In this document: positions 3,515 through 9,669 of the stretch, piece by piece | How the letters are laid out: the number at the start of each line of letters is the position of its first letter | How positions within the stretch are numbered: position 1 is the first letter of the stretch | Assembly (NCBI GenBank): GCA_030425715.1 | Contig: JAUIAA010000002.1 | Span: 1-34,075 of the forward strand | Reading direction: 5' to 3' | Origin: Bacteroidia bacterium | GTDB lineage: Bacteria > Bacteroidota > Bacteroidia > Flavobacteriales > Flavobacteriaceae | Length of the DNA: 34,075 nucleotides | The notes under the pieces: generated by a model | What the model was told of the DNA's origin: nothing | What the model saw: the letters and a program-made list of their open reading frames with translations, nothing else | Database searches by the model: none | Program-made: the position numbers and the translations under genes

Positions 3515-4066
3515 CTATTGTAAAATTATAGGCAGTTTTACTCTAGTTGTATCCCAACCCAATATAATTTCAATATGCTTGCTTTTATCTTTAAAGGCTA
3601 TAGAAAAGGCTTCAATAGGTTCGGCTTTACTTACTTTTGCTGTCGTTCTAGCAGCGTCAAACTTTTTATCGTATTCATAAGTACCCCAAGTGTCTAAATT
3701 TGAGCTTAAAATTAAGGTCCATTCTTTTTCTTCAGGAATGGCATACAAAGTATAAGTCCCTTTTTTAACCGGTTTATTTCCAAAAAGAACATCTTGATAA
3801 AATCTTATTTCCGTAGCTTCGTTTGCCCCAACCCTCCATACTTTGCCGTAAGGAATTAGTTTCCCAAAAATTTCTCTGTTGTGTTTCTGCGGTCTTCCGT
3901 AAAGCACCTTGATTATTGGCGGAGAAATTTTATTGGCTCGATAATAAACAATATCATGAGGGCTTTTATCTAAATCCTTAAAATCTTGGGCATGCACCTC
4001 TGTTGCTGCAAAAAATACTAAAGTAAAAAGAAATAAAATCGATAATTGTTTTCTAAACGTATTCAT
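3515..4066 (-). CDS. DUF2911 domain-containing secreted protein (copy 1)
   Basis: 183 aa ORF with signal peptide; YGRPQKHNREIFGKLIPYGKVWRVGANEATEIRF...GTYTLYAIP resembles DUF2911. Confidence 0.8.
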   Translation of the reverse strand: MNTFRKQLSILFLFTLVFFAATEVHAQDFKDLDKSPHDIVYYRANKISPPIIKVLYGRPQKHNREIFGKLIPYGKVWRVGANEATEIRFYQDVLFGNKPVKKGTYTLYAIPEEKEWTLILSSNLDTWGTYEYDKKFDAARTTAKVSKAEPIEAFSIAFKDKSKHIEIILGWDTTRVKLPIILQ

Positions 4067-4070
4067 AAAT

Positions 4071-4631
4071 TTATATTTCGGCTAAAATGGCGTCGTTGGT
4101 TTTTAATGGAATATCAACTCTGGTGGTATCCCAAGCCAAAACCATAAAAGTGTTTTTGTAATCTTGCTTAAACGCAATGGAAAACACATCTAGCTCCTCC
4201 ATCTTTTTTACAGGAACTTTTATTCTTGCCACATCTTTGGTCTCATCATAAAAATAAGCCCCCCAAGTATCTGTATTGTTGTTTAAAATAATTGTCCACT
4301 CTTTCTCTCCTGGTATGGTATGCATCACATAAGTACCTGCTTTAATTACCTTGTTGCCAAACATCATGTCTGTATAAAACTTCACTTCAGTAGCCTCATT
4401 GGCTCCTGTTTGCCAAATTTTACCATACGGGATTTCTTTGCCAAAAATAGCACCTTTCTCCTTTTGGGGGCGGCTATAAACCACCTTTATCAAAGGTTTT
4501 GCAATGTTTTTATGACGTAAATAGGAAATATCTGTTGGACTCTTATCCAGTTGCTCAAACTTCTGAGCTTGGATGGTGTTGGTGAGAAAAAATGCCATAG
4601 CAATAACAGCAGTAAAATAAACTTTTTTCAT
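4071..4631 (-). CDS. DUF2911 domain-containing secreted protein (copy 2, paralog of the adjacent gene)
   Basis: 186 aa ORF with signal peptide; same motifs as the 3515-4066 product (IPYGKIWQTGANEATEVKFYTDMMFGNK). Confidence 0.8.
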   Translation of the reverse strand: MKKVYFTAVIAMAFFLTNTIQAQKFEQLDKSPTDISYLRHKNIAKPLIKVVYSRPQKEKGAIFGKEIPYGKIWQTGANEATEVKFYTDMMFGNKVIKAGTYVMHTIPGEKEWTIILNNNTDTWGAYFYDETKDVARIKVPVKKMEELDVFSIAFKQDYKNTFMVLAWDTTRVDIPLKTNDAILAEI

Positions 4632-4801: not shown

Positions 4802-5476
4802 ATGAAAATACTAATAGTAGAAGATGAGCTAGAGATACTTAAGGTTATCAAAAAATATTTGCAAAATGCAGATTTTATTTGCGAATCGGCCATGACTTAT
4901 TTTGAAGCCGAAGATAAATTTATTAGCTATAAGTACGATATTGTAATTCTAGATATAACGCTTCCCGATGGAAATGGATTAGACCTGCTTAAAACCATTA
5001 AAAAAATAAATCCAGAAACTGGAGTGCTAATCGTTTCCGCTAAAGATTCTTTAGACGATAAACTTATGGGCTTAGATTTAGGTGCCGATGATTATATTAC
5101 GAAACCATTTCATTTACCAGAACTTAATTCAAGAATAAACTCCATAATAAGAAGAAGAAAATTTGAGGGTAATGAGAATATCATTTTTCATGAAATTGAA
5201 ATAAACCCAGATGCCAAAACAGTTTTTGCAAACAAACAACCCGTAGAACTTACCAAAAAAGAATACTTTTTACTCCTTTACTTTATTACCAATAAAAATA
5301 GAGTTTTAACCAAAGAAGCAATTGCAGAACACCTTTGGGGGGACAACATAGATTTGGCAGATAATTTTGATTTTATTTATACTCACATGCGAAACTTGAG
5401 AAAAAAAATAAAAAAAACTGGTGCCAACGACTACTTGCAAACCATTTATGGATTAGGATATAAATTTGGTGATTAA
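4802..5476 (+). CDS. Two-component response regulator, OmpR/PhoB family (receiver plus winged helix)
   Basis: MKILIVEDELEILKVI...DIVILDITLPDGNGLDLL...ADDYITKPF receiver; C-terminal LTKKEYFLLLYFITNKNRVLTKEAIAEHLWG...IYTHMRNLRKKI...YLQTIYGLGYKF winged-helix. Internal ATG at 4802 preferred because the upstream TTG start overlaps a TATTTTTG -7 box (4767-4774). Confidence 0.93.
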   Translation: MKILIVEDELEILKVIKKYLQNADFICESAMTYFEAEDKFISYKYDIVILDITLPDGNGLDLLKTIKKINPETGVLIVSAKDSLDDKLMGLDLGADDYITKPFHLPELNSRINSIIRRRKFEGNENIIFHEIEINPDAKTVFANKQPVELTKKEYFLLLYFITNKNRVLTKEAIAEHLWGDNIDLADNFDFIYTHMRNLRKKIKKTGANDYLQTIYGLGYKFGD

Positions 5477-6723
5477 TGCGTTTAATTCAAAAAACAAAAA
5501 GAACCTACATCCTATTTTCAATAATAATTTTTATTGTTTCCAGTACCGCAATTTATTTTACCCTAAAAAACATTATTGAAAAAAGACAAGACGAAAAACT
5601 TTTATGGGATAAAGAATTAATTGCACAAAAAATAAAATACGAATATCCACTACCTATTTTTGATGTAGAAGATTTTGATAAAAATGTAAATTTAAAAGAT
5701 ACGCTTTACTTTAAAGATACCTTAATTTATCAATTAATTAATGGTGTAGAAAAATATGAAAAATACAGGCAGCTTACTTCTATAGAAACCTTACACAATA
5801 AAACATACCGAATTATCACTAGAAGCTCTGATGTAAAAACACAAGATTTTTTCTTAGCAATTGTGCTCTCTGTTGGTGTGGTGATTTTATTATTAATTTT
5901 AGTAGTGTATATAGTCAATACCGTAATTATGAATTACGCTTGGCTTCCGTTTTATGAAAATCTAGAAATTTTAAAAAACTTTTCTGTTGAATTAAACGAA
6001 CCCATTGCACTAAGAGGGTCTTCAGTAGATGAGTTTAAAGAGCTAAACACTTCTATTGAAAAATTAACTGGAAAATTAGTTTCCGATTTTAGAAACCTTA
6101 AAGAATTTACCGAGAATGCTTCGCATGAAATGCAAACTCCTTTAGCCATAATGCAAAGCAAAGCAGAGTTTTTAATGCAATCTGAAGAGTTAAAACGCAG
6201 TCAAATCAAACAAATAAAAGCCATTTATGTAGCATCAAAAAGGTTGTCTAAACTAAACAAAACTCTTTTGCTTTTATCAAAAATTGAAAATCAACAATTT
6301 AGCGAAAAAGAAGAAATTCATATCAACGAAGTAATTGATAAACATTTAGAATTGGTAGAAGATTTTATAGAAAATAAAAAAATAAGCATAAACAAAAATT
6401 ATGCACTTGGTGCCAAATTAAATGCGAACCCATTATTGTTTGACATGGTTATTACCAATATTATTGGCAATGCTATTAAGCACAATATAGAAGGGGGAGA
6501 AATTTCTATAGTAACTTCAGATTTGTTTATTAGTTTTACCAACTCTGGTTTGCCGCTAAATATTCCATCTAAATCTTTATTTGAAAGGTTTAGAAAAGAC
6601 AGCAAATCTGCAGATTCTTTTGGGCTTGGTTTGGCTATTGTTAAAAAAGTTTGCGATACCAATAATTGGAATATTAACCATACTTACCTTGATAACCAAC
6701 ACAATATTACTATCTATTTTTAG
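5476..6723 (+). CDS. Sensor histidine kinase
   Basis: 1-nt overlap (TAATG) with the response regulator; two TM segments; H-box ENASHEMQTPLAIMQSKAEFLM; N-box NIIGNAIKHN; G-box DSFGLGLAIVKKVC. Confidence 0.92.
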   Translation: MRLIQKTKRTYILFSIIIFIVSSTAIYFTLKNIIEKRQDEKLLWDKELIAQKIKYEYPLPIFDVEDFDKNVNLKDTLYFKDTLIYQLINGVEKYEKYRQLTSIETLHNKTYRIITRSSDVKTQDFFLAIVLSVGVVILLLILVVYIVNTVIMNYAWLPFYENLEILKNFSVELNEPIALRGSSVDEFKELNTSIEKLTGKLVSDFRNLKEFTENASHEMQTPLAIMQSKAEFLMQSEELKRSQIKQIKAIYVASKRLSKLNKTLLLLSKIENQQFSEKEEIHINEVIDKHLELVEDFIENKKISINKNYALGAKLNANPLLFDMVITNIIGNAIKHNIEGGEISIVTSDLFISFTNSGLPLNIPSKSLFERFRKDSKSADSFGLGLAIVKKVCDTNNWNINHTYLDNQHNITIYF

Positions 6724-6778: not shown

Positions 6779-6814
6779 ACTTCAGAATTCCTATAGAAAC
6801 CCAACATACATTTG
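6779..6814 (+). promoter_or_regulatory. Promoter 1 of the sRNA array: 11-bp-phased repeat plus -7 box
   Basis: ACTTCAGAATTCCTATAGAAACCCAACATACATTTG: TTCAGAATTCC then a degenerate TATAGAAACCC repeat, and -7 box TACATTTG at 6807-6814. Repeat start to -7 box is 28 nt, identical to promoters 2 and 3. Confidence 0.7.
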
Positions 6815-6817
6815 CCA

Positions 6818-7044
6818 CGTTAATTATTTGGTACAGCCAGTAAATAACCATCTCAAAAAGTTCAAAATTACAATCTAGATATTGAGATGAATAGATTAGA
6901 CTTTTAGTTACAATTTTATCTTATTAATATATTTTGAGGGGAATGGTATTAAAAAAGATAAATACTTCGCAAATACTATGAAACATTAAGCTATTATAGT
7001 TTTGCATAAAGGTTCTTACATTGAAATTGTAAGAACCTTTTTTT
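6818..7044 (+). ncRNA. Predicted small RNA, copy 1 of 3
   Basis: TSS inferred a few nt after TACATTTG; CATCTCAA/TTGAGATG hairpin (6849-6856/6882-6889); TGAGGGGAAT at 6935-6944; GCAAATAC 6969-6976; ATTAAGCTATT 6985-6995; TTTGC 7001-7005; terminator hairpin plus U-tract ending about 7044. Confidence 0.78.
7008..7044 (+). terminator. Intrinsic terminator of sRNA copy 1
   Basis: GGTTCTTACA (7011-7020) ... TGTAAGAACC (7028-7037) followed by a T-tract. Confidence 0.88.
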
Positions 7045-7058
7045 ATAAAAATAAAATA

Positions 7059-7094
7059 ACTTCAAAATTTCTTCAGAATTGAAAATTACATTCG
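7059..7094 (+). promoter_or_regulatory. Promoter 2 of the sRNA array
   Basis: ACTTCAAAATTTCTTCAGAATTGAAAATTACATTCG: TTCAAAATTTC + TTCAGAATTGA (11-bp phase), -7 box TACATTCG at 7087-7094. Confidence 0.75.
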
Positions 7095-7097
7095 CAG

Positions 7098-7310
7098 CGT
7101 TATCATGAATACTGACATCCAAATTTCAGAAATATTGATGGCTATGAAGTAAATTCTGAATTATTTTAGATTTACAGTTTTATTTTAAATTATATTTTTT
7201 TGAGGGGAATTGTATAATCTTAAAATAAAACTTGCAAATACATTGAAATATTAAGCTATTTTAATTTGCGTAAAACCCGTTTAAATTTTTATTTAAACGG
7301 GTTTATTTTT
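7098..7310 (+). ncRNA. Predicted small RNA, copy 2 of 3
   Basis: TTCAGAA/TTCTGAA hairpin (7125-7131/7154-7160); TGAGGGGAAT 7201-7210; GCAAAT 7234-7239 paired with ATTTGC 7264-7269; ATTAAGCTATT 7250-7260; 14-bp terminator stem. Confidence 0.82.
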
Positions 7311-7311
7311 T
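7273..7311 (+). terminator. Intrinsic terminator of sRNA copy 2
   Basis: AAACCCGTTTAAAT (7273-7286), TTTT loop, ATTTAAACGGGTTT (7291-7304), then ATTTTTTT: a 14-bp perfect stem. Confidence 0.9.
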
Positions 7312-7336
7312 TAAACCGATTAGGAATCATAACAAA

Positions 7337-7372
7337 ACTTCAGAATTTCTTCAGAATTCAGTTATACATTTG
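7337..7372 (+). promoter_or_regulatory. Promoter 3 of the sRNA array
   Basis: ACTTCAGAATTTCTTCAGAATTCAGTTATACATTTG: TTCAGAATTTC + TTCAGAATTCA (11-bp phase), -7 box TACATTTG at 7365-7372. Confidence 0.78.
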
Positions 7373-7375
7373 TAT

Positions 7376-7594
7376 TAAATCTTTAATTTCGTTTACTTTT
7401 TTTAAAATTAAAGGTTTTTATTTTTCTAACAATTTAGTGATTTCAGGTTAAAATCACCATAATATTAAACTGAGGGGAATAATATTATACAATAGATTTT
7501 AACTTTATGCAAATACTACAAATATTAAGCTATTTTTATTTGCACTATTTAAAAGCCTACCACAATTTACTTTTAATGTGGTAGGCTTTTTTTT
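7376..7594 (+). ncRNA. Predicted small RNA, copy 3 of 3
   Basis: GTGATTT/AAATCAC hairpin (7437-7443/7451-7457); TGAGGGGAAT 7471-7480; GCAAAT 7509-7514 paired with ATTTGC 7538-7543; ATTAAGCTATT 7524-7534; strong terminator. Confidence 0.82.
7551..7594 (+). terminator. Intrinsic terminator of sRNA copy 3
   Basis: AAAAGCCTACCACA (7551-7564) ... TGTGGTAGGCTTTT (7577-7590) plus T-tract. Confidence 0.9.
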
Positions 7595-7685
7595 ATGGCA
7601 AAATTCCACACGTATCTTATTAAAAAATGTTGATAACTTGGAGCTTAAAATCAATGAAAAATAAGCTTAAAAAAGGTGGTTTTAC

Positions 7686-7704: not shown

Positions 7705-9669
<1,965 letters not shown>

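Follow-up and report, generated by a model that had tools for sequence, protein, structure and literature searches.

A family of tandem small RNAs (sRNAs) in the marine genus Lutimonas is very probably activated, through direct repeats phased at 11 bp in each promoter, by the OmpR-family response regulator (RR) encoded immediately upstream. The locus lies in a 34,075-nucleotide stretch of flavobacterial DNA (hereafter the window), where an OmpR-family two-component system (TCS) is followed by three tandem terminator-ended RNA genes and gyrB. That the adjacent RR acts through these repeats had been predicted from this window, and the reading is supported by the linkage of array and TCS, a matrix scan in four genera, the way in which the site tracks the recognition helix and an envelope-related regulon. 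From sequence we could establish the promoter grammar and its conservation, the TCS linkage, the structure of the RNAs (by covariation) and a wider set of genes with the box. The genes of the locus are:

4802 to 5476, plus strand: OmpR/PhoB-family RR, the predicted activator (Pfam Response_reg, 5.6e-27; Trans_reg_C, 2.2e-20).
5476 to 6723, plus strand: cognate sensor histidine kinase (HK) with HisKA and HATPase domains (Pfam; NCBIfam NF052314).
6819 to 7045, plus strand: sRNA 1, predicted transcript (core 6924-7012, terminator 7008-7045; covariance model 59.6 bits; fold z -4.1).
7099 to 7311, plus strand: sRNA 2 (core 7190-7276, terminator 7273-7311; covariance model 79.8 bits; fold z -4.2).
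7377 to 7597, plus strand: sRNA 3 (core 7460-7550, terminator 7552-7594; covariance model 72.2 bits; fold z -4.6).
7732 to 9669, plus strand: gyrB, the conserved downstream neighbour (Pfam DNA_gyraseB; synteny).

Pfam confirmed that the gene upstream of the array encodes an OmpR-family regulator, with a receiver domain and a winged helix whose recognition helix is NFDFIYTHMRNLRKKI (alignment of the DNA-binding domain). Among the NCBIfam matches listed, the RR reaches no equivalog cut-off, scoring 158 bits against the 296 required for the PhoB equivalog. The HK exceeds the curated cut-off of the PorY family NF052314 (404.5 against 350 bits). PorY of P. gingivalis signals to PorX, which is encoded elsewhere (PMC4800418), whereas the Lutimonas HK is paired with an OmpR-family RR; PorY is therefore a family name here and not an assignment to the T9SS. 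Two adjacent DUF2911 genes (window 3515-4631) are divergent from the RR gene and are kept beside the TCS across Lutimonas, and no RR box was found between them and the RR gene. On the other side of the array, gyrB has its own promoter, with TATATTTG just upstream, and probably lies outside the RR regulon. A DnaA-box-like TTATCAACA on the minus strand, within ATGTTGATAACTT (window 7626-7639), lies about 90-100 bp 5' of gyrB and is conserved in 8/8 loci examined. No tRNA was found in the window.

The three RNA genes are preceded by the following promoter elements, P1 to P3, with predicted transcription start sites (TSS):

6780 to 6797, plus strand: P1 operator, CTTCAGA-N4-CTATAGA, with a degenerate second half-site (gapless alignment; PWM 21.5).
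6807 to 6814, plus strand: P1 -7 box, TACATTTG, TSS predicted at 6819 (promoter alignment; -7 box convention after PMC9723704).
7060 to 7077, plus strand: P2 operator, CTTCAAA-N4-CTTCAGA (alignment and repeat search; PWM 26.3).
7087 to 7094, plus strand: P2 -7 box, TACATTCG, TSS predicted at 7099 (promoter alignment).
7338 to 7355, plus strand: P3 operator, CTTCAGA-N4-CTTCAGA, perfect (alignment and repeat search; PWM 31.7).
7365 to 7372, plus strand: P3 -7 box, TACATTTG, TSS predicted at 7377 (promoter alignment).

The three 36-mers on which the original prediction was built were found at 6779-6814, 7059-7094 and 7337-7372, and they align without gaps as described. They had been called identical, which goes too far: P1 has TTCAGA..TATAGA, P2 TTCAAA..TTCAGA and P3 TTCAGA..TTCAGA. 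The proposed half-site, TTCAGAATTnn recurring every 11 bp, had the right phase, but the half-site proper is a 7-mer, CTTCAGA, and the spacer is 4 bp, alignment positions -1 and +10 being an invariant C. The general layout is CTTCAGA-N4-CTTYAGA in 11-bp phase, followed after 9 nt by a TAnnTTTG -7 box. The reported absence of a TTG -33 element was borne out by inspection of P1, P2 and P3. By the flavobacterial convention, in which the -7 box spans -12 to -5 (PMC9723704), the half-sites occupy -38 to -33 and -27 to -22. The array displays the sequence features of an OmpR/PhoB activator-type promoter: an adjacent RR gene, half-sites of about 11 bp in place of the -33/-35 element and a fixed spacing to the -7/-10 box.

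The fixed distance to the -7 box, 9 nt in P1-P3, holds well beyond the window. In 44 of 47 distinct orthologous or paralogous RNAs the spacing is the same and the promoter is gapless, with no insertion or deletion from the first half-site through the second to the -7 box. The 47, drawn from some 20 Lutimonas genomes and a sister genus, comprise 36 RNAs found by pattern, eight found by covariance model in the same arrays and three from that sister genus; the remaining three lack the promoter, each being a single member of an array. Across 33 aligned promoters, information averages about 1.5 bits per position in the half-sites and 1.28 in the -7 box, against 0.33 in the spacer, 0.29 in the upstream flank and 0.20 downstream. 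Position +1 is usually G (1.2 bits). That half-sites and -7 box are rich in information beside poor flanks marks the element as selected sequence and not as a remnant of duplication. Within the window, TTCAGAATTTCTTCAGAATT with up to three mismatches matched twice (P2 and P3), against 0.02 matches expected in shuffled sequence. A scan of the whole draft genome with a degenerate repeat and at most two mismatches recovered only P2, P3 and two unrelated weak matches. A generic sigma-70 promoter scan was uninformative.

The cores and terminators of the three RNAs fold 4.1-4.6 standard deviations better than shuffles. All three share GAGGGGAAT, followed by a GCAAAT...ATTTGC stem enclosing ATTAAGCT, and each sRNA has two conserved hairpin loops, GAGGGG and UUAAGC. 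RNAalifold found no consensus structure on a loose alignment, and an explicit two-hairpin structure was tested in its place; it paired 86.6% of cells, against 37-52% when slid along the alignment. Its covariation score was 0.272 against 0.149 in shuffles, with a change from UA to CG beside the UUAAGC loop as one example, in a test that calls for caution on related sequences. sRNA 1 has an additional 5' hairpin, CATCTCAA...TTGAGATG (5' alignment), and in RNA1-type members the arms of this extra hairpin have changed yet still pair, as judged by eye. The 5' region of the sRNA is unlikely to encode a small peptide, the conserved part reading as a hairpin with paired changes and showing no conserved frame. 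Across 36 RNAs, TGAGGGGAA and ATTAAGCT do not vary, an invariance that comes in part from how the RNAs were collected, as GAGGGGAA and ATTAAGCT were in the search pattern. The third RNA of the sister genus, retrieved with the covariance model, has TGAGGGGAC and ATTAAGTG. Rfam gave no match at gathering score in the window and, at relaxed thresholds, only sub-threshold unrelated matches over the array; the sRNAs are therefore a new RNA family.

The RNA-core pattern matched 20 of 22 genomes of Lutimonas, the genus of the window, and the two genomes without a match are 61% and 67% complete. Named records that carry the system are those of Lutimonas halocynthiae and L. saemankumensis. When a stricter RNA pattern was run against 301 genomes of the family, matches came from Lutimonas only, and the covariance model, run over 150 sampled genera, added one further genus, the sister genus G150. 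Arrays consist of two to four look-alike RNA genes. G150 has three; its first and second RNA units are nearly the same in sequence and lie 284 bp apart (L127, about 5860-6600, reverse complement), a recent tandem duplication that includes promoter and terminator. These duplicates show how the array grows by tandem duplication.

Gene order is RR-HK-RNAs-gyrB in every locus with enough flanking sequence, G150 included. Arrays without this TCS, which had been named as evidence that would speak against the regulator, were not encountered: array and TCS are never apart where the contig extends. Apparent HK truncations in two genomes are scaffold gaps (runs of N). RNA-motif matches in Acinetobacter and Deltaproteobacteria contigs adjoin no such TCS and were taken as chance; those in Deltaproteobacteria had no model match and that in Acinetobacter was marginal (29.2 bits).

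A motif matrix built from the sRNA promoters only was used to scan, in other genera, the loci of 13 RRs related to this one. Near four RRs with helix DFIYVHINNLRKK (L028-L031, 57-59% identical), in genera G010, G013, G050 and G037, the top matrix scores were 9-17.6, mostly far above local shuffles (at most 6.1). The matches precede the RR's own gene at L028, L029 and L030, and further ones precede genes for an OMP_b-brl_3 receptor, an LtaS/OpgB-like sulfatase, a DUF347 protein and others. Most of the L028-L031 matches are followed by TAnnTTT at the distance seen in the sRNA promoters. No comparable promoter-placed matrix matches were seen near the eight RRs (L032-L039) whose helix is DFIYSQIKNLRKK or close to it, and L027, with a YTHL helix, was intermediate. 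The box thus travels with the recognition helix, YTH and YVH helices having the site and YSQ helices lacking it. In a genome-wide pattern search, the sites lay beside the TCS in 4/4 cases in G050, 6/7 in G010 and 3/4 in G013, and genomes without a close RR gave zero to two poor matches. These clustering counts are descriptive, as the pattern was partly informed by sites from the matrix scan; the matrix scan is the independent test. No box was found upstream of the RR gene in Lutimonas or G150, so the autoregulation suggested in the relatives is absent here. The relatives have the box at their own gene and at envelope protein genes, and Lutimonas has it at sRNAs, which suggests that the output of one regulator has been changing.

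Genome-wide in Lutimonas the box is rare, occurring at the sRNAs and a few protein genes. It lies upstream of an OmpA-family lipoprotein gene (SCVSKKKYV...) in at least ten Lutimonas genomes, including that of the window (G000 contig 241, L182). In four genomes it also lies a few tens of nt upstream of a gene for a 39-41-aa protein, MIxKHxTTxxMVKxxxxVIExRV. These genes were located as follows:

L182:674-1629, L041:3130-4125 and L040:3255-4250: OmpA-family lipoprotein with the RR box in its promoter.
L184:694-813, L185 835-954 (reverse complement), L188:651-770 and L199:548-673: 39-41-aa protein.

Between two genomes compared, 9/10 differences in the 39-41-aa reading frame fall at third codon positions, and it is thus very likely to be a real gene. 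It has no Pfam match, and no close homologues of the 39-aa protein were found in G010, G013, G050, G037 or G150. In two Lutimonas genomes the box was seen upstream of large, apparently secreted proteins (741+ and 936+ aa; L181 and L183). The predicted regulons of related RRs in other genera are envelope-centred too. With the box on envelope genes in both Lutimonas and the relatives, an envelope-response system is the best reading of the TCS that we can infer, and there is about an even chance that the sRNAs serve this response.

We propose that, on a signal, the HK would phosphorylate the RR, which would then bind CTTCAGA-N4-CTTYAGA as a head-to-tail pair at -38/-27, replacing the -33 element. 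At each RNA gene, the bound RR would bring in sigma-A RNA polymerase at the TAnnTTTG box. The outcome would be a co-ordinated output of two to four homologous sRNAs with Rho-independent terminators, with co-induction, elsewhere in the genome, of the OmpA-family outer-membrane lipoprotein and, in several species, of the 39-aa protein. Without Hfq, the sRNAs would most probably work at the post-transcriptional level and supply the repressing side of the envelope response. The steps that we infer are binding by the RR, activation, the role in envelope stress and base-pairing by the sRNAs.

It is improbable that the repeats are bound by another OmpR-family regulator encoded in this genome and that the adjacency of the TCS is synteny only. 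Flavobacterial genomes contain several OmpR-family RRs, and that the adjacent one binds here is a prediction. However, the site follows the orthologues and near-relatives of this RR across genera, their own promoters included, it is missing near RRs whose recognition helix differs, and array and TCS are not separated in any locus whose sequence extends far enough. Nor is the RR likely to be a repressor, whose operator at -38 to -22 would block sigma-A polymerase until the signal de-repressed the sRNAs. The operator does span the -33 region and the spacer, and repression is possible in principle, but this is quite improbable: an unaided promoter would have no -33 element to use, and the geometry is that of activators which take over the -35 contact (CiaR, PMC3091779; PhoB, PMC3348028).

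The missing -33 element, together with the presence of the repeats in nearly all array promoters, could also be read as an RR-independent core promoter element driving constitutive housekeeping copies of the RNA. We consider this highly improbable, given that the half-sites have the phasing of OmpR-family dimers and that the box is rare genome-wide, found only at these RNAs and a handful of further genes, and clusters at related TCSs in other genera. As for a recent duplication in tandem of a single RNA gene, with repeats under no selection, the array members are indeed paralogues, and the G150 pair, 284 bp apart, is nearly identical. Yet information has dropped to 0.2-0.3 bits per position in the flanks and the 5' parts of the RNAs, against 1.3-1.5 in half-sites and -7 box, and unrelated genes carry the same element, so that a duplication-only reading is already contradicted and has next to no probability. 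Activation by the adjacent RR is the reading that we retain.

Hfq, the usual chaperone of sRNAs, was detected in 0/6 genomes, near-complete Lutimonas genomes among them, and control genomes were positive. Complementary 9-mers near start codons were neither enriched over controls nor conserved. The antisense TTCCCCTCA-N-ATG, considered as a target signature, was about as common as its reversed control, had no recurring gene and was discarded. The exposed conserved loops would suit mRNA pairing or protein binding, with mRNA pairing weakly favoured. More tentatively, and with only a modest chance of being right, the GAGGGG and UUAAGC loops might act through an unknown partner and not by Hfq-type seed pairing, either by protein titration in the manner of CsrB/RsmZ or by a new pairing rule for mRNAs without a Shine-Dalgarno sequence. 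They would then form a genus-level, Hfq-independent post-transcriptional arm of an envelope TCS in Bacteroidota.

Firmicutes and Proteobacteria have known families of homologous sRNAs under TCS control. To our knowledge, few Bacteroidota sRNAs have an assigned regulator. No report of a TCS-driven homologous sRNA family in Bacteroidota was found in the titles and abstracts of mostly openly accessible literature, and none was found on Lutimonas sRNAs. The system unites a regulator, its operator code, an RNA family and part of a protein regulon in one compact, testable package. Rfp18 of Flavobacterium is likewise a structured flavobacterial sRNA, for which the accessible part of its source reports no TCS control (PMC9723704).

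At the level of the operator, PhoP of M. tuberculosis binds 7-bp direct repeats with a 4-bp spacer (PMC4832192). PhoP/PhoB-type operators share with Lutimonas these repeats, the spacer and the predicted head-to-tail arrangement, with PhoB placed over the -35 region, and in the PhoB model the pho box and the C-terminal domain of sigma share that region (PMC3348028). The operator sequence differs, and the Lutimonas RR falls well short of the PhoB equivalog cut-off. LisRK-LhrC1-5 of Listeria resembles the Lutimonas system in having multicopy homologous sRNAs, one RR and a repeated loop motif, and each LhrC promoter depends on one RR and is induced by envelope stress (PMC4132741). However, the LisR element lies near -55 to -75, upstream of -53 (PMC4132741), whereas the Lutimonas operator covers the -35 region from -38 to -22. 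The LhrC loops carry UCCC and not GAGGGG/UUAAGC, the phylum is different, and the Lutimonas array is not a member of LisRK-LhrC.

The closest known analogue is CiaRH with the csRNAs of Streptococcus, LisRK-LhrC being second, and neither is homologous to the Lutimonas system as a whole, since helix, half-site, RNA sequences and loop motifs differ. CiaR is an OmpR-family RR. Its site, TTTAAG-N5-TTTAAG, lies 10 nt from the -10 box in front of homologous csRNAs (PMC3091779), and some csRNA genes are in tandem (PMC8186281). The half-site is CTTYAGA in Lutimonas, the box is the Bacteroidota TAnnTTTG, the RNA sequences are unrelated, the systems are not orthologous, and all RNAs stand in one array directly behind the HK gene. 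The Lutimonas system works like CiaRH but falls outside it, CiaR combining helix VVEVYVSKVRKKL with TTTAAG and the Lutimonas RR NFDFIYTHMRNLRKKI with CTTYAGA (PMC3091779). What the two systems have in common is an OmpR-family RR, direct repeats in 11-bp phase at a fixed spacing (10 nt in CiaRH, 9 nt in Lutimonas) and several homologous terminator-ended sRNAs, some of them in tandem; in both, the strongest promoters drive the sRNAs.
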